Part shown: in pieces, positions 48,802-56,377 of the stretch
Numbering within the stretch: the stretch's first letter is position 1
Layout: the number at the start of each line of letters is the position of its first letter
Source: Thermoleophilia bacterium
Lineage (GTDB): Bacteria > Actinomycetota > Thermoleophilia > Miltoncostaeales > Miltoncostaeaceae
Length of the DNA stretch: 64,000 bases
Assembly: GCA_009694365.1 (NCBI GenBank)
Contig: SHVE01000002.1
Location: 62,001-126,000, forward strand
Direction: 5' to 3'
Notes under the pieces: model-generated
Database searches by the model: none
What the model saw: only the letters and a program-made list of their open reading frames with translations
What the model was told of the DNA's origin: nothing
Made by a program: the position numbers and the translations under genes

Positions 48802-49101
48802 GTGCCGCGACCGACCATGCCGAGGTGGGCAGGTTCCGCCGTCGCCCTCGTACTCATCACCGCAGGTACCGCGCACGGAAGTGCCGGACCCGTCGCGGTG
48901 CCGACCGGGGCGCGGTGGACCGTGCTCGTTGTCGCTGCCGTCCTCGTCCTCGGGGCTGGGGCCCTTATCGTGCGCTCCATGTGGGGGATGCGGACCCCGC
49001 TCGCACGCGGGGCGAGCAGTTTCACCGAAACCCTGTGGCTCGTGCTCCCGCTCGCCCTGTCGGTAGCGCTTCTGATCTGGACCGGGATGGGGATCGTATG
49101 A
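48802..49101 (+). CDS. Small three-helix membrane protein upstream of ctaB
   Basis: A 99-residue protein with hydrophobic segments near residues 10-28, 38-57 and 75-95. The last one, SSFTETLWLVLPLALSVAL, resembles the second transmembrane helix of oxidase subunit II encoded at 51514 (LEVVWTTIPSLILVIVAVYG) in the order T-E-x-x-W-x-x-x-P. It could be a relic or a small accessory subunit of the oxidase. Its stop overlaps the ctaB ATG. The GTG at 48802 fits a -10 box; ATG at 48817 is an alternative. Confidence 0.7.
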   Translation: MPRPTMPRWAGSAVALVLITAGTAHGSAGPVAVPTGARWTVLVVAAVLVLGAGALIVRSMWGMRTPLARGASSFTETLWLVLPLALSVALLIWTGMGIV

Positions 49102-49997
49102 GCACGGGCACGGCTGCCGCCGAGGTCACCGCCGCCCCGGGTCTCGCGCGCGACCTCGTCACCCTCACGAAGCCGCGCATCATCTCGCTACTGCTCGTCA
49201 CCACGGTGTGCGCCATGTTCGTGGCCGACCGCGGGGTGCCGAACGGGTGGCTCATCGTCGGGACGATCATCGGTGGCTATCTGTCCGCCGGTGGCGCCAA
49301 CACCATCAATCAATTCGTGGATCGCGACATCGACGCAGTGATGGACCGCACGGGTCGCCGTCCCATCGTTGCCGGACGCATCTCCCCCGGGTGGGCGCTC
49401 GCCTACGGCTGCGGTCTCGTGGTGGCGAGCGTTCTGGTGCTCGGCCTCCTCACCACATGGCTCGCGGCCGGTCTGTCGCTCGTGGGGGTGGCTCTCTACG
49501 TTGGCCTCTACACGCTGTGGCTCAAGCGCACCACCATCCACAACATCGTCATCGGTGGCGCCGCGGGCGCCGTTCCCCCGCTCGTGGGATGGGCGGCGGT
49601 CACCGGTGAGATCACGTTCGGTTCCGTACTGCTCTTCGCCATCGTCTTCGCGTGGACGCCACCGCACTTCTGGGCGCTCGCCCTCATGCTGCAAAAGGAC
49701 TACTCGCAGGCTGGCGTTCCCATGCTCCCGGTGGTCTACGGCGAGGACGCCACGCGCCGTCAGGTTCTGCTGTGGACCGTCGTCATGCTCGGCATCACCG
49801 TGCTGCCCTTCGCCGCCGCCGAGGCGGGGCTGGTGTACCTCATCGCCGCCGTCGTTTTGGGCGCGGCGTTCCTCGGGATGGCCGTCCGCTTGTGGCGCGG
49901 TGACACCCGTCGCCCGTGGGCCGCGATCACGTTCCACTTCTCCCTCGCATACCTCGCGGCGCTCTTCGTGGTCATTGCCCTGGACGCATCACTGTGA
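49098..49997 (+). CDS. ctaB: Protoheme IX farnesyltransferase (heme O synthase)
   Basis: Adds a farnesyl group to heme B, the first step toward heme A for the oxidase encoded downstream. The 299-residue UbiA-family membrane protein has the prenyl-diphosphate motif NQFVDRDIDAVMDRT near residue 72, the CtaB-specific FAWTPPHFWALAL near 185 followed by KDYSQAGVPMLPVVYG, and about nine hydrophobic helices. ATG at 49098 overlaps the preceding small gene. Confidence 0.95.
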   Translation: MSTGTAAAEVTAAPGLARDLVTLTKPRIISLLLVTTVCAMFVADRGVPNGWLIVGTIIGGYLSAGGANTINQFVDRDIDAVMDRTGRRPIVAGRISPGWALAYGCGLVVASVLVLGLLTTWLAAGLSLVGVALYVGLYTLWLKRTTIHNIVIGGAAGAVPPLVGWAAVTGEITFGSVLLFAIVFAWTPPHFWALALMLQKDYSQAGVPMLPVVYGEDATRRQVLLWTVVMLGITVLPFAAAEAGLVYLIAAVVLGAAFLGMAVRLWRGDTRRPWAAITFHFSLAYLAALFVVIALDASL

Positions 49998-51190: not shown

Positions 51191-51513
51191 CGCAAATGGT
51201 CCCCGGCCACACGGGTTAGGGGGGTCCTAGTGACCGTCGACGGCGTCCTCGCCGTGCCCCTCGGCCAACCGGTCGTGCCACCTGACGTAGGTATGCCCGT
51301 CGCGCGGGTCAGGGGGTCCTGGTCGCCGTTGATAGCGGAATCCCCTCATCCCCGAGGCCGCCCAATCGTGACCGCCCGACGCCGATCGTCCCGCGCGACG
51401 CATGTCACCGATTTCCGGCAGGGTGGATCGGGGACATGCGGTCCCCCAAATCCGGGCTAGACAGGGGGGTCCCGTGGGCAGGGGTGCCCCCCTCCGATAG
51501 TAAGGTGCCGCGC
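51191..51513. other. Gap before ctaC with G-rich imperfect repeats
   Basis: About 320 nt without a gene. Two imperfect direct repeats, about 33 nt each (starting 51213 and 51306), share GGGTYAGGGG and a GTCCT core; a third AGGGGGGTCC occurs near 51464. The -10 box of ctaC is at the right end. Confidence 0.5.
51501..51506 (+). promoter_or_regulatory. -10 box TAAGGT of ctaC, leaderless type
   Basis: TAAGGT ends 7 nt before the ctaC GTG at 51514. AAGGTG could alternatively serve as a weak ribosome site. Confidence 0.45.
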
Positions 51514-52497
51514 GTGTACAAGAAGATGCCGTTCATTCCCCTGGCCATCATCGGCATCGTCGTCGCTGCCGCAACGGCCGCCCAGGCCCTGCTCATCGAC
51601 TGGCTGCCCGAGGCCGCCAGCGAACAGGCCGGCCGTACAAACACGCTTCTCTGGGTGCTCTTCTGGTGCAGCGTCGTCTTCTTCGCCATCGTCACCACGG
51701 TCCTGATCTATACGATCTGGAAGTTCCGCGCATCGGACGACGATCTGGAGGACGGGCCGCCGATCAACGGCAACACCACCCTCGAGGTGGTGTGGACCAC
51801 GATCCCGTCGTTGATCCTCGTCATCGTGGCGGTCTACGGCTACATCGTGCTCGAGCGCAACGAAGCCGTCGCCCCGGATCGCCTCACGGTGAACGTCTAC
51901 GCCCAGCAGTTCAGCTGGACGTACGGCTATCCGGAGGCCGGTATCCAGACCGGTATCCTCGTGGTGCCGGTCGGGCGTCAGGTGGAACTGCATGTGCGCG
52001 CCCGCGACGTGATCCACAGCTTCTGGGTCCCCGACTTCGGCATCAAGGGCGACGCCGTACCGGGCATCGACCACGTGCTCTGGATCAACCCCACGAAGGT
52101 CGGCACCTTTCCCGTCGTGTGCGCCGAGTTGTGCGGCGTGGGGCATAGCGTCATGCGTTCGCGAGTGGTCGTTCTCCCGCAGGTCAAGTACGACGCGTGG
52201 CTCGCCACGTCCCGGCGCACGGTTACCGGCGATTCCGCCACGGCTGCCGCCGACGCCACGCGGGCGAACGCACCGGGTGATGTGACGGCGGGCGCCACGA
52301 CCTTCACCTCCTCGTGCGGCGGCTGCCATGCGGATCTCGGCACGGCCGCGGGCGTGGGCCCGAAACTCTCAGGTCTCGGTCTCGCCTCGGATCAGATCCG
52401 GGCCCAGATCACCACCGGCAAGGGCCTCATGCCGGGTGGCCTCGTCTCCGGCACCGACATGGCGAACGTCGTCGCGTATGTGACGTCAATCCAGTAG
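51514..52497 (+). CDS. ctaC: Cytochrome c oxidase subunit II with fused cytochrome c domain
   Basis: A 327-residue oxidase subunit. Two transmembrane helices (residues about 5-25 and 43-68, the latter before LEVVWTTIPS) anchor a periplasmic cupredoxin domain with the CuA site CAELCGVGHSVM near residue 203. A linker leads to a C-terminal class I cytochrome c with the heme motif CGGCH near 268 and a probable Met ligand in LMPGG near 308. The fused heme domain marks a caa3-type oxidase taking electrons from soluble or anchored cytochrome c. Confidence 0.95.
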   Translation: MYKKMPFIPLAIIGIVVAAATAAQALLIDWLPEAASEQAGRTNTLLWVLFWCSVVFFAIVTTVLIYTIWKFRASDDDLEDGPPINGNTTLEVVWTTIPSLILVIVAVYGYIVLERNEAVAPDRLTVNVYAQQFSWTYGYPEAGIQTGILVVPVGRQVELHVRARDVIHSFWVPDFGIKGDAVPGIDHVLWINPTKVGTFPVVCAELCGVGHSVMRSRVVVLPQVKYDAWLATSRRTVTGDSATAAADATRANAPGDVTAGATTFTSSCGGCHADLGTAAGVGPKLSGLGLASDQIRAQITTGKGLMPGGLVSGTDMANVVAYVTSIQ

Positions 52498-52531: not shown

Positions 52532-55282
52532 ATGGCAACTCACGTACCTTCTCCCGCACACGCCCCCGGTGGGCACCATGGCGGGCACGCCCATTACGAG
52601 GACCCCCGCTCGGTCGGGTACTGGTGGATACGTGCGTGCATCGGTGCGCTCGTCGGCGTCCTGGGGTCCTTCCTCCTTCTGCTCCTGCTCCGGGTCCTCT
52701 TCGGCTTCGAGCCCCTGTTCGACGGAGCGGTCTACGGCGCCGTCGCCGGACTGCTCGGTGGAATCGGTTTCCTGTGGGGGATCGGCTGCTTCGACACATG
52801 GATCCAGTGGGGCCGCGGCGCCCGCATGGAGGAGGACCACAGCTTCCACGGGGTGAGCCGGTTTAGCCAGTACTTCCGTCTGAACACCGACCACAAGGTG
52901 ATCGGCTTCCAGTACCTGGCCATCACCCTGTTCTTCATGGTGTGCGGCGGGATCATGGCGTTGCTCATCCGCACCGAGCTCGCCGCCCCCGGCCAGCAGT
53001 TCGCCGACGGCCAGACGTACAACGGGTTCGTCAGCATGCACGCCACGCTGATGATCTTCGTGTTCGCCGTCCCGGTGTTCGGGGGCATCGCCAACTTCGC
53101 CTTGCCGATCATGCTCGGGGCCAAGGACATGGCGTTCCCGCGACTGAACGCGCTGTCGTTGTGGTTCCTGCCGGTCGCGGGTTTCCTCTTCCTCGCGAGC
53201 ACGTTCACGGGAATGTTCGCGTCCGCGTGGACGGCCTACCCGCCGCTGGCCAGTCAGGGCACCGCCGGCCAAACCCTCTTCGAGTTAGGCGTGCAGTTCG
53301 CCGGTGCGTCATCCATCGCGACGGCCATCAACTTCCTCGCGACCATCATCACGATGCGCGCACCCGGAATGACCATCTGGCGCATGCCAATCCTCGCCTG
53401 GGCCACCGGGGTGACCTCGGTCCTCGTGGTCTTCGCCACGCCGTTCGTGGCCGGGTCGCAGTTCCTCACGATGTTCGACCGCATCATGGGGACCAACTTC
53501 TTCGTGCCCGATCAGGGCGGCGACGTCGTCATGTACCAGCACATCTTCTGGTTCTACTCACATCCGGCCGTGTACATCATGCTGCTACCCGGCTTCGGCA
53601 TCATCAGTGAAGTCATCGCCACCTTCTCGCGAAAGCCGCTCTTCGGGTACCGCGCCATGGCGTTCTCGCTGGTCGCGATCGCGGTGCTCGGATTCGGCGT
53701 GTGGGCGCACCACATGTTCGTGTCGGGGATGGCCGCCTGGCTGCGCGTCCCGATGATGGTCACCACGATCATCATCGCGGTGCCCACCGGCGTGAAGATG
53801 TGGTCGTGGCTCGCCACCCTCTGGCGGGGGAAGATCCACATGAAGACGCCGATGCTGTGGGCCCTCGGCTTCCTGTTCACCTTCCTCATCGGTGGACTGT
53901 CGGGCGTCTTCAACGGCATCGTTCCGGCCGACATTCAGGTGTCAGACACCTACTTCATCACCGCCCACCTGCACTACGTGCTCTACGGCGGGACGGTGTA
54001 CACGGTCTTCGCGGGCATCTACTACTGGTTCCCCAAGATGACCGGGAAGATGTACAACGAACGGCTCGGCCAGTGGCACTTCTGGCTCACCTTTGTGGGC
54101 ACGCAGATCACCTTCTTCCCCATGCACTGGCAGGGGCTCCAGGGAATGCCTCGTCGCGTCGCCGACTACGACCCGCGCTTCGCCATGGTCAACGGGGTGG
54201 AGACAATCGGGTCGTACATGCTCGCCATCGCGACCGTCGTCTTCTTCTACAACATGGTCAAATCGATGAAGTCCGGCGGCCCGGCACCATGGAACCCGTG
54301 GCGGGGACGAACCCTCGAGTGGATGGTGTCGTCACCGCCACCGCTCTTCAACTTCGACACCATCCCACAGGTCGTGGGTGGCCCGTACCAGTACGGAATC
54401 CCGGACGCGCGTCACGCCGTGCTGTTCGCGCCCGAGGAGTTTGGCGGCGAGCTCCGGGAAGACACGCGCTACCCGGTGCTGGTGGTCGCAAACGCAACGC
54501 TCACGTCGCAGACCCTCATCGACGACATCCGGGCGCGCAATGCGGACAGCCTCTGGTCGTTCCAGTTCGTGGTGCCCGTGGGTGAGGGCGACCGCGACGT
54601 CGCCGAGCGCCGCTTGGCCACCACCCTGGCGATCCTCGCCGAGCACGGCGTGGCGGCCACCGGCCGCGTCGCCGACGGCGACGTCGTTCCCGTGGCGACC
54701 GCGGCGGCGGCGGAGACGCACCCGCACGAACTCATCATCGCCACGCTGCCGCTGGCCGAGAGCGCGTGGATGCGCTCCGACTCGCTCGACCGCGTGCGGA
54801 AGGCCACCACCCTGCCCGTGACCCACATCATCGTTCCGGGCAACGACGCCCGTGCCCTGTCCGGCGCCGCGGCCCTCCCGCTCATCATGGTGGTGGCCAC
54901 CGACGGGGTGGGTGCCGAGGCGCTCGCCACCGTGGTCCGCGCACGCGCCGACGCCCGTGCCGCCCACTTCGCCATCATCGCCCCGCTCGACCTGCCAAAT
55001 CCGAGGTGGGGTGCCGAGGCGTCCGAGCGGCGCCGCGAGGCCGGGGAGCGCATGACGGCCATCATCAACGCCCTCACCTCCACGGGGGTGGCCGTACAGG
55101 GTGAGGTCATGGACGACGGCCCACTCACGGCCCTCCCCCGTGCCGTGGCCGCTTACACGCCGTCGCAACTCCTCGTCGTCGGGTTCGGCGACGAGACATC
55201 GGCGCTCGCGGATGCCGCCGAGGCGGCGGCGGACGACACGCACGTGGAGACCATCCACCTCGGCACCGCGGCGGGGGACTGA
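52532..55282 (+). CDS. ctaD: Cytochrome c oxidase subunit I fused to a C-terminal tandem Usp-like domain
   Basis: A 916-residue protein. Residues 1-117 are a His-rich start and two extra membrane helices; about 118-620 is the heme-copper oxidase core with SMHATLMIFVF, FYSHPAVYIMLLPGFG (CuB His and cross-linked Tyr region), WAHHMFVSGM (CuB His pair) and TYFITAHLHYVLYGG (heme a3 and heme a His). From about 627 to 916 comes a soluble extension with two alpha/beta repeats, starting near YPVLVVANATLTSQ (646) and LPLIMVVATDGVGAEA (781), resembling universal-stress-type Rossmann units; a nucleotide-binding glycine motif is not clear. The extension is on the cytoplasmic side if topology is canonical. 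Confidence 0.93.
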   Translation: MATHVPSPAHAPGGHHGGHAHYEDPRSVGYWWIRACIGALVGVLGSFLLLLLLRVLFGFEPLFDGAVYGAVAGLLGGIGFLWGIGCFDTWIQWGRGARMEEDHSFHGVSRFSQYFRLNTDHKVIGFQYLAITLFFMVCGGIMALLIRTELAAPGQQFADGQTYNGFVSMHATLMIFVFAVPVFGGIANFALPIMLGAKDMAFPRLNALSLWFLPVAGFLFLASTFTGMFASAWTAYPPLASQGTAGQTLFELGVQFAGASSIATAINFLATIITMRAPGMTIWRMPILAWATGVTSVLVVFATPFVAGSQFLTMFDRIMGTNFFVPDQGGDVVMYQHIFWFYSHPAVYIMLLPGFGIISEVIATFSRKPLFGYRAMAFSLVAIAVLGFGVWAHHMFVSGMAAWLRVPMMVTTIIIAVPTGVKMWSWLATLWRGKIHMKTPMLWALGFLFTFLIGGLSGVFNGIVPADIQVSDTYFITAHLHYVLYGGTVYTVFAGIYYWFPKMTGKMYNERLGQWHFWLTFVGTQITFFPMHWQGLQGMPRRVADYDPRFAMVNGVETIGSYMLAIATVVFFYNMVKSMKSGGPAPWNPWRGRTLEWMVSSPPPLFNFDTIPQVVGGPYQYGIPDARHAVLFAPEEFGGELREDTRYPVLVVANATLTSQTLIDDIRARNADSLWSFQFVVPVGEGDRDVAERRLATTLAILAEHGVAATGRVADGDVVPVATAAAAETHPHELIIATLPLAESAWMRSDSLDRVRKATTLPVTHIIVPGNDARALSGAAALPLIMVVATDGVGAEALATVVRARADARAAHFAIIAPLDLPNPRWGAEASERRREAGERMTAIINALTSTGVAVQGEVMDDGPLTALPRAVAAYTPSQLLVVGFGDETSALADAAEAAADDTHVETIHLGTAAGD
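53938..53950. repeat. GGTGTCAGACACC palindrome inside ctaD
   Basis: A perfect 13-nt copy, but it encodes QVSDT just before the conserved TYFITAH, so protein constraint can explain it. Confidence 0.4.
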
Positions 55283-55284
55283 CC

Positions 55285-55872
55285 ATGGCGACCACCGCGC
55301 ACTCACCCGGGAAGACGGGCCACGGCCTCAATGCCCCGCTCATCGCGATGCTGTTGTTCATCGGCTCAGAGATCATGCTCTTCGCGTCCTTGTTCACCGC
55401 CTACTTCTTCATCCGGTACGGGGTGGCCAACGAGCAGTGGCCCCCGCTCCGGGCTGATGGCGAGCCGTTTGAGCTTCCTGTCCTCCTCACGGGCATCAAC
55501 ACCCTCATCCTCGTGGGATCCTCCTTCACCCTCTGGTGGGGTGAGAAGCGTCTTGCCGCCGGCGATTCCCAGGGCCTGATCCGGGGCCTGTGGGTCACCA
55601 TCCTCATGGGTGCCACCTTCCTGCTCATCCAGCTCAACGAGTACGCCCACCTAGGATTCACCCCGCAGGACCGGGCCTTCAGTGGCGCGTTCTACACGCT
55701 CACCGGATTCCACGGTGCCCACGTGCTCGTGGGACTCATCGTGCTCAGCCTGTGTCTGCGGCGGGCGTACCGGAACGACTTCAATACGACACCGCTCACG
55801 GCGGGTTCGTACTACTGGCACTTCGTCGACATCGTCTGGGTCCTTCTGTTCCTCCTCGTCTACGTCATCTAG
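55285..55872 (+). CDS. ctaE: Cytochrome c oxidase subunit III
   Basis: A 195-residue membrane subunit with five helices, the short form common in actinobacteria and Gram-positives. It has LLFIGSEIMLFASLFTAYFF near residue 23, INTLILVGSSFTLWW, TGFHGAHVLVGLI near 140 and the C-terminal YYWHFVDIVWVLLFLLVY with the conserved WHFVD. ATG at 55285 follows ctaD by two bases; it stabilises the catalytic core. Confidence 0.95.
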   Translation: MATTAHSPGKTGHGLNAPLIAMLLFIGSEIMLFASLFTAYFFIRYGVANEQWPPLRADGEPFELPVLLTGINTLILVGSSFTLWWGEKRLAAGDSQGLIRGLWVTILMGATFLLIQLNEYAHLGFTPQDRAFSGAFYTLTGFHGAHVLVGLIVLSLCLRRAYRNDFNTTPLTAGSYYWHFVDIVWVLLFLLVYVI

Positions 55873-55879
55873 GGACACC

Positions 55880-56377
55880 GTGCGCTCACGTCTCATCACA
55901 TCAACCGTTGCCATCGTCCTCGCGGGCGGTGCTCTCGCTCTCACGGGCTGCGGCGCCGCCGAGAGTGCTCTGTCGACGGCGGACACCCAAGCGGGCAAGA
56001 CGCTGTTCGTCACGTCCTGTGGCGGCTGCCACACGATGACGGACGCCGGTACGACGGGTGTGGTTGGCCCCAACTTGGACGACGCTTTCAGCAGCTCCCG
56101 CCAGCAGGGGTTCCAAGACAGCATCTTCTACGGCATCGTCAAGCGCTGGATCGCGATGGCGCCGCAGCCGCCGCTGCCGGGGTCGTACCCGCAGGCGATG
56201 CCGCAGAACCTCGTCATCGGAACCGACGCCGAGAACGTGGCGGCCTACGTGGCCACGTTCGCCGGGACGTCCCCGGGCAGTGATGTGCGGGCGATCACGC
56301 CGGCCGTGCAGGGCACCCCGGCGTCCCCCGCTAAGGATCCGGCGACGGCCTTGGGCGGAGGCGCGACCAGCCCCTGA
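55880..56377 (+). CDS. Lipoprotein cytochrome c
   Basis: A 165-residue exported protein. The signal ends in a lipobox (LALTGC), so it is probably lipid-anchored outside the membrane. One heme c site CGGCH is near residue 49, and Met candidates for the sixth ligand are in IAMAP and QAMPQN. It lies between ctaE and an SDR gene and may be the direct electron donor to the oxidase or a companion subunit. GTG at 55880 has AGGGA just upstream. Confidence 0.85.
   Translation: MRSRLITSTVAIVLAGGALALTGCGAAESALSTADTQAGKTLFVTSCGGCHTMTDAGTTGVVGPNLDDAFSSSRQQGFQDSIFYGIVKRWIAMAPQPPLPGSYPQAMPQNLVIGTDAENVAAYVATFAGTSPGSDVRAITPAVQGTPASPAKDPATALGGGATSP

Follow-up and report, generated by a model that had tools for sequence, protein, structure and literature searches.

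Two Usp-fold domains in tandem are known from UspE, Rv2623 and TTHA0350, all of them soluble stand-alone proteins, and one report describes ATP binding in both domains of TTHA0350 although the motif is undetectable (PMC12159084). Usp domains also occur on membrane proteins; two papers name the KdpD kinase as well as permease-Usp and Na+/H+ exchanger-Usp proteins of haloarchaea (PMC4686210, PMC12159084), none of which is a respiratory oxidase. KdpD is reported to bind c-di-AMP via its Usp domain (PMC4686210). TT0030 of Thermus thermophilus (PDB 2iel) is a single small protein of 138 residues that is unattached to an oxidase and was deposited as a hypothetical protein; our search of the open-licence literature found no paper on it. 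The oxidase in PDB entry 2yev, which we take to be the T. thermophilus caa3 oxidase, has subunit I fused to subunit III. No report of an oxidase-Usp fusion was found in the open-licence literature.

The window (the whole stretch of 64,000 nucleotides analysed, from a Thermoleophilia genome assembly of 1.5 Mb in 19 contigs, order Miltoncostaeales) contains an oxidase operon in which the subunit I gene continues into a tail of about 270 residues with two Usp-like domains. The window's family is probably Miltoncostaeaceae, the sole family of that order named at NCBI. The tail shares its tandem arrangement with UspE, Rv2623 and TTHA0350 but stands behind a membrane enzyme and lacks the ATP motif. 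In contrast to 2yev, subunit III has its own gene and what extends subunit I is Usp-like. Since membrane proteins with Usp domains are already known, the apparent novelty, as far as the literature was searched, is their presence on a predicted oxidase. The features of the locus are as follows.

49098..49997, plus strand: ctaB-like gene, presumably heme O synthase, upstream of the fusion gene in the same cluster; start codon chosen by hand
51436..52497, plus strand: ctaC, subunit II with a C-terminal cytochrome c domain, predicted caa3-type
52532..55282, plus strand: ctaD-usp2 fusion, 916 amino acids, ATG to stop, the end coordinate including the stop codon
52613..52780, plus strand: pair of additional membrane helices at the N-terminus, about residues 28-83 (AlphaFold2 helices 28-57 and 65-83)
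52883..54373, plus strand: core of heme-copper oxidase subunit I, residues 118-614; helix VI reads YSHPAVY
54380..54463, plus strand: linker GPYQYGIPDARHAV...GGEL, residues 617-644
54464..54847, plus strand: Usp-like domain 1, residues 645-772, with T-x-P-x3-S-x-W
54743..54781, plus strand: signature TLPLAESAWMRSD, residues 738-750, inside Usp-like domain 1
54863..55273, plus strand: Usp-like domain 2, residues 778-914, without T-x-P-x3-S-x-W
55285..55872, plus strand: ctaE, subunit III, 195 amino acids, matching Pfam COX3 from model position 78 only
55880..56377, plus strand: small lipoprotein-like cytochrome c; start codon chosen by hand, lipoprotein character judged by eye

The fused gene is a single uninterrupted frame of 916 codons with no internal stop, as the earlier note on this DNA had read it. 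The COX3 match lies in its own frame at 55285, which rules out a subunit I+III fusion and agrees with the separate ctaE that the note had described. We also considered and rejected an internal start that would give a separate tail: the five in-frame GTG codons at residues 599-651 have no ribosome site evident by eye, and in-frame ATG or TTG starts are absent from residues 599-662.

The heme-copper oxidase core was claimed to be complete with all of its His ligands, and family models and alignment bear this out. PF00115 (COX1) matches residues 124-562 above its cut-off (1.3e-152), and the full TIGR02891 model matches residues 118-614 (1.9e-200) with 666.8 bits, slightly below its curated cut-off of 670.75. 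H170, H344, H393, H394, H479 and H481, presumably the His ligands, and Y348, which we take to be the active-site tyrosine, are invariant in 30 aligned sequences including that of the window. Subunit I is accordingly classed, by its sequence, as a type A heme-copper oxidase. Helix VI reads YSHPAVY in all seven family and sister sequences printed (the window and six relatives) and GHPEVY in 12 of the 14 comparison oxidases. As we understand the A2 subfamily of type A to be defined by YSHP replacing GHPE at this place, the fused subunit I is assigned as A2-like by its YSHPAVY. Among solved structures, the subunit I sequences nearest to it include those of 7rh6 and 6adq, presumably actinobacterial oxidases, and the I+III chain of 2yev, whose subunit I core is homologous (3.7e-140). 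The ctaC product has a Cytochrome_CBB3 match and a CxxCH motif at residue 294, and this cytochrome c domain on subunit II makes the oxidase a predicted caa3-type enzyme.

The two extra N-terminal helices that had been claimed are present in the AlphaFold2 model. Their region could be aligned in 12 family sequences and gave weak phmmer matches in several other Thermoleophilia families; against PDB sequences nothing was found below E 0.4. Subunit III is short, as if its first two helices were missing, and the extra helices of subunit I might stand in for them.

AlphaFold2 modelling of the tail alone, from 30 sequences, gave two domains of alternating strands and helices (pLDDT 86, pTM 0.79). Model strands begin at residues 647 and 784, close to the repeat starts of about 646 and 781 that had been proposed, and further strands at 733-738 and 879-884 overlap the proposed late strands LIIATLPL and LLVVGF. 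A hydropathy scan flags residues 772-803 as a potential membrane helix; this was discarded, as domain 2 has a strand and a helix at these residues in the models. In Foldseek the top ranks went to 2iel and universal stress proteins, with one domain superposing closely (2iel, 3.5 A) and both domains together giving a TM of about 0.3 and rmsd of 16-19 A. Joint two-domain superposition on proteins of the UspE and Rv2623 type likewise left an rmsd near 15 A or more. By VIA-align the best structural match to the tail was 2iel (Z 15.2, 2.9 A over 121 residues of domain 1); universal stress proteins scored Z 12-13 (up to 13.4) with either domain, 7ji4, from the membrane-protein Usp group of KdpD, permeases and exchangers, scored 10.8, and proteins not named universal stress proteins reached about 8-10, with a chloride cotransporter's regulatory domain scoring 10.7. 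A tail profile run against PDB sequences found 2iel (2.8e-8) in two partial stretches of 23.5 and 11.6 bits, one per domain, as its sole match under E 0.2. The Usp-like tandem proposed in the earlier note is thus recovered by structure prediction and comparison with the PDB, and we consider the fold assignment firm: as modelled, the tail is a tandem of Usp alpha/beta domains.

Family models do not recover this relationship from the sequence. Pfam and NCBIfam gave neither Usp nor another credible family in the tail, and PF00582 (Usp) had no match to either fused half at E up to 10. Four of six unfused homologues matched Pfam Usp (24.0, 23.7, 18.8 and 16.3 bits; cut-off 24) and two did not. Ordinary Usp genes are found in the same genome, with four matches above the Pfam cut-off (contigs C8, C12 and C19; L178-L181), so the fused domains are not the sole Usp-like proteins there.

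The classical ATP motif, G-2x-G-9x-G(S/T), was found in none of 92 domains even with spacings of 8-10 allowed, so that the mark of a classical ATP-binding Usp is lacking. From the example of TTHA0350, nucleotide binding may still occur in the absence of the motif. The signature TLPLAESAWMRSD appears to sit near the place that the motif occupies in classical Usp proteins, and TT0030 has the same T-x-P-x3-S-x-W. Counted with the looser pattern [TV]-x-[PS]-x3-S-x-W, the signature is present in 15/15 first domains and 0/15 second domains of the window's family, in all three single-domain fusions described below, in eight of nine other single domains and, among the unfused proteins, in 23/25 first and 19/25 second domains (42/50 half-domains). 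A stricter pattern retained 3/15 first domains of the family, 3/3 single-domain fusions and 0/9 other singles, and 5/25 first and 19/25 second domains of the unfused proteins. The sequence match and the signature together place fused domain 1 in a TT0030-like group, a grouping defined in this analysis, and the retention of the signature suggests a binding site. The c-di-AMP site of KdpD uses another motif than the tail (PMC4686210). As a ligand, c-di-AMP was set aside on suggestive grounds: no DAC-domain match was found in the window's genome (98% complete), with 11 of 14 controls matching.

Related genomes, to which the earlier note had pointed as a check, carry the same fusion. In GTDB, 114 stretches matched a seed and 32/32 loci encoding a relative of the tail were fused in frame, in a search seeded with linker peptides that favours fused copies and could hardly have shown unfused relatives; 29 of these are complete at 912-924 amino acids (start codons chosen by hand) and three are cut by contig ends. 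Three of the GTDB contigs (L040, L041 and L042) are titled Bifidobacterium breve and bear this operon; the titles look wrong. A class-wide profile search of 249 genomes, 42 of them from the window's family, is free of the linker-seed bias, and its family genomes overlap with the 32 GTDB loci, the two samples not being independent. Essentially the whole tail lies in one open frame in 37 of the 42 (35 at 913-1008 amino acids and two cut upstream by contig ends). Of the other five, two are split or cut by contig ends, two have no COX1 match (a weak Usp-like match stands alone in one of them) and one, G035, has a frame break. This break (locus L182) falls between the two Usp domains and leaves domain 1 fused to COX1; it may be a sequencing error or a real loss. 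Unfused copies of this subunit I were not seen in any of the 42 family genomes. In a phylum-wide sample of 396 genomes, a junction profile spanning the end of COX1, the linker and the first domain gave stop-free matches over its full length in 10, and these 10 are every sampled member of the window's family. In three genomes of another Thermoleophilia family its full-length match ran through exactly one stop codon, and no junction-spanning match occurred elsewhere among the matches listed. As far as seen in these genomes, the fusion appears fixed in the window's family.

Other families of the class often have a module of this kind as a separate gene. We collected 36 unfused loci from these families with a COX1 of the same kind (core score above 600 bits against that of the window), and 26 of them have a two-domain Usp-like gene between COX1 (ctaD) and COX3 (ctaE); in the remaining 10 it is absent from that position. 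The 36 comprise the 16 unfused loci of L122-L141 (L140, of the window's family, left aside), a set chosen mostly for tail matches in their genomes and therefore biased towards having the gene (14 of 16), L142-L157, the rest of the COX1 match type with model positions 3/4-504 among the matches listed (10/16), and L174-L177 from the junction search (2/4). A less biased subset, the unfused loci with COX1 model positions 3/4-504 among the matches listed, has the gene in 19 of 27. The gene overlaps ctaD by 4 bp (ATGA or GTGA) in 13 of the 26 gene-bearing loci, the script having counted 14, of which L147 was left out for a second in-frame stop; the junction in L155 is TGATG. In five of the 26, ctaD and the usp-like gene share a frame with one stop between them. 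A single Usp domain is fused to the same kind of subunit I in another family, in 3/3 loci fetched from the four of its genomes in the class sample. A separate gene at about residue 620, which the earlier note held to speak against the fusion, is therefore present in other families of the class and was not seen in the window's own; as the two-gene counterpart, it does not undo the observation. The gene order argues that the two-domain Usp-like module belongs to the predicted caa3-type oxidase operon, and its position between ctaD and ctaE in many sister loci most likely means that it works with the oxidase. Its absence from this position in 10 of the 36 loci suggests that it would modulate the oxidase and be dispensable for catalysis there.

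Two further arrangements were seen in these families. A further Usp-like match lies behind COX3 in nine loci (L124, L134, L135, L139, L143, L148, L151, L155 and L177), and the eight of these single domains that were included in the domain tree form their own branch. L159 (1797-5255) and L160 (2580-5108), from two genomes of one other Thermoleophilia family, encode a different oxidase with COX1 and COX3 matches in one open frame.

Phylogeny allows more than one origin of the fusion. In the core trees the tandem-fusion family forms one clade and the single-domain-fusion family another. The two are apart in the rooted tree (AU test of one clade, p 0.414) and together in an unrooted tree made without the long L174 row (SH-aLRT 95.7). 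In the rooted tree the main unfused group excludes both fused families, so that an ancestral fusion may also have been split; these trees are compatible with a single fusion, two separate fusions or later splitting. The domain tree does not pair the halves of fused proteins with those of unfused ones, and one-to-one orthology of the halves therefore rests on gene order and architecture. Alignment A1 comprised the window and 14 of 30 loci, A2 and A3 omitted L044, L049 and L052 (contig ends), and the domain tree omitted L051, L037, L046 and L061. L163 (G411) was left out of the tables and later trees; it is nearly identical in its oxidase locus to L147 (G243), from a genome of another class, and is probably a misbinned contig.

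Substitution patterns within the genus indicate that the tail is a constrained part of the protein under purifying selection. Median dN/dS over 136 pairs of 17 sequences was 0.12 for the core, 0.31 for Usp1, 0.27 for Usp2 and 0.05 for the linker, and mean identity was 91%, 71%, 75% and 96%, respectively. The linker is thus the most conserved of the five stretches compared. Unfused subunit I ends soon after a peptide resembling PYEYGVPGA-HAV, which is similar to the first part of the linker; the start of the linker therefore seems to be the native C-terminus of the oxidase, and the Usp domains come after it.

About 14 membrane helices precede the tail, with Lys and Arg concentrated in the loops assigned inside, and solved oxidases have the termini of subunit I on the N side. 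The number of helices and the charges of the loops place the tail in the cytoplasm, in line with the cytoplasmic location claimed for it. A full-length AlphaFold2 model (pLDDT 66, residues 586-643 under 50) had a core of too low quality for the tail to be positioned against the membrane part.

We regard the tail as a putative cytoplasmic accessory or regulatory module, a tandem of Usp domains on an A2-like caa3-type oxidase that would affect activity or assembly according to the energy or stress state of the cell, a reading that we give an even chance. The module and the oxidase would probably occur one to one. The two domains would form a pseudo-dimer of the Usp type under the membrane, close to the side of subunit I at which protons enter; domain 1 might bind a small cytoplasmic ligand, with a nucleotide as the first guess, or a protein at T-x-P-x3-S-x-W, and domain 2 would serve as its structural partner. 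The bound state could then change the activity of the oxidase, or its assembly and stability, and respiration would follow the energy or stress state. In favour of this accessory module we count the family-fixed fusion, the two-gene arrangement in 26/36 loci, the single-domain fusions, the fold, purifying selection, the topology and the use of Usp as an input module of membrane proteins elsewhere, such as KdpD (PMC4686210). Against it we count the ATP motif found in 0/92 domains searched, the gene absent between COX1 and COX3 in 10/36 loci, the domain 2 signature at 0/15, the faster divergence of the Usp domains than of the core (71-75% versus 91% identity), the unpaired fused and unfused halves in the domain tree and the tail left unplaced at a full-length pLDDT of 66. 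A bolder version is tentative and in our view rather doubtful: a dedicated Usp-fold regulatory subunit of a Thermoleophilia caa3-type oxidase, with its gene between ctaD and ctaE and here built permanently into the catalytic subunit, in which a cytoplasmic ligand in a non-classical pocket sets turnover. If true, it would parallel in principle, in a bacterium, the control of mitochondrial cytochrome oxidase by nucleotides.

The module could instead fold, load with cofactors or stabilise nascent subunit I without any ligand-dependent control. Gene order and the 4-bp overlaps suit coupled synthesis, domain 2 is without the signature, and a review expects further bacterial oxidase assembly proteins still to be identified (PMC9145763). 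However, a permanently fused assembly factor cannot be recycled, and the signature kept in domain 1 of 15/15 family members and in 42/50 unfused half-domains suggests a binding site; we judge such a role unlikely. A passive scaffold that links the oxidase with soluble proteins or further oxidases and has little direct effect on catalysis is more improbable still. Usp proteins commonly dimerise, and the domains change faster than the core, as would suit docking. Tandem Usp dimers are named in PMC12159084. On the other hand, a scaffold has no known partner here, and a linker conserved above the core suggests a tight structural role near the membrane.

The five of 26 gene-bearing unfused loci that are one stop away from fusion indicate how stop loss could have joined a neighbouring stress protein to subunit I and left a functionless read-through relic. 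This is very unlikely given the two-gene order widespread in the class and a fusion that the family retains, with dN/dS near 0.3 and not one intact split copy observed. A chance open frame or assembly artefact, for which the GC content of 68.5% and the many long spurious frames in this DNA might speak, is ruled out for practical purposes by conservation and dN/dS, the frame recurring in many genomes that were assembled separately and its changes favouring synonymous sites.

The accessory module remains the preferred reading, and the neighbouring Usp-like gene and the fusion together suggest an unrecognised partner or regulator of respiration. Such a module occurs both as a separate, deletable gene in sister families and as a fused domain in the window's family. 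If the reading is true, it would supply the first functional context for TT0030-like domains, and a bacterial cytochrome c oxidase controlled directly from the cytoplasm by a built-in domain would add a new level to the regulation of respiration.
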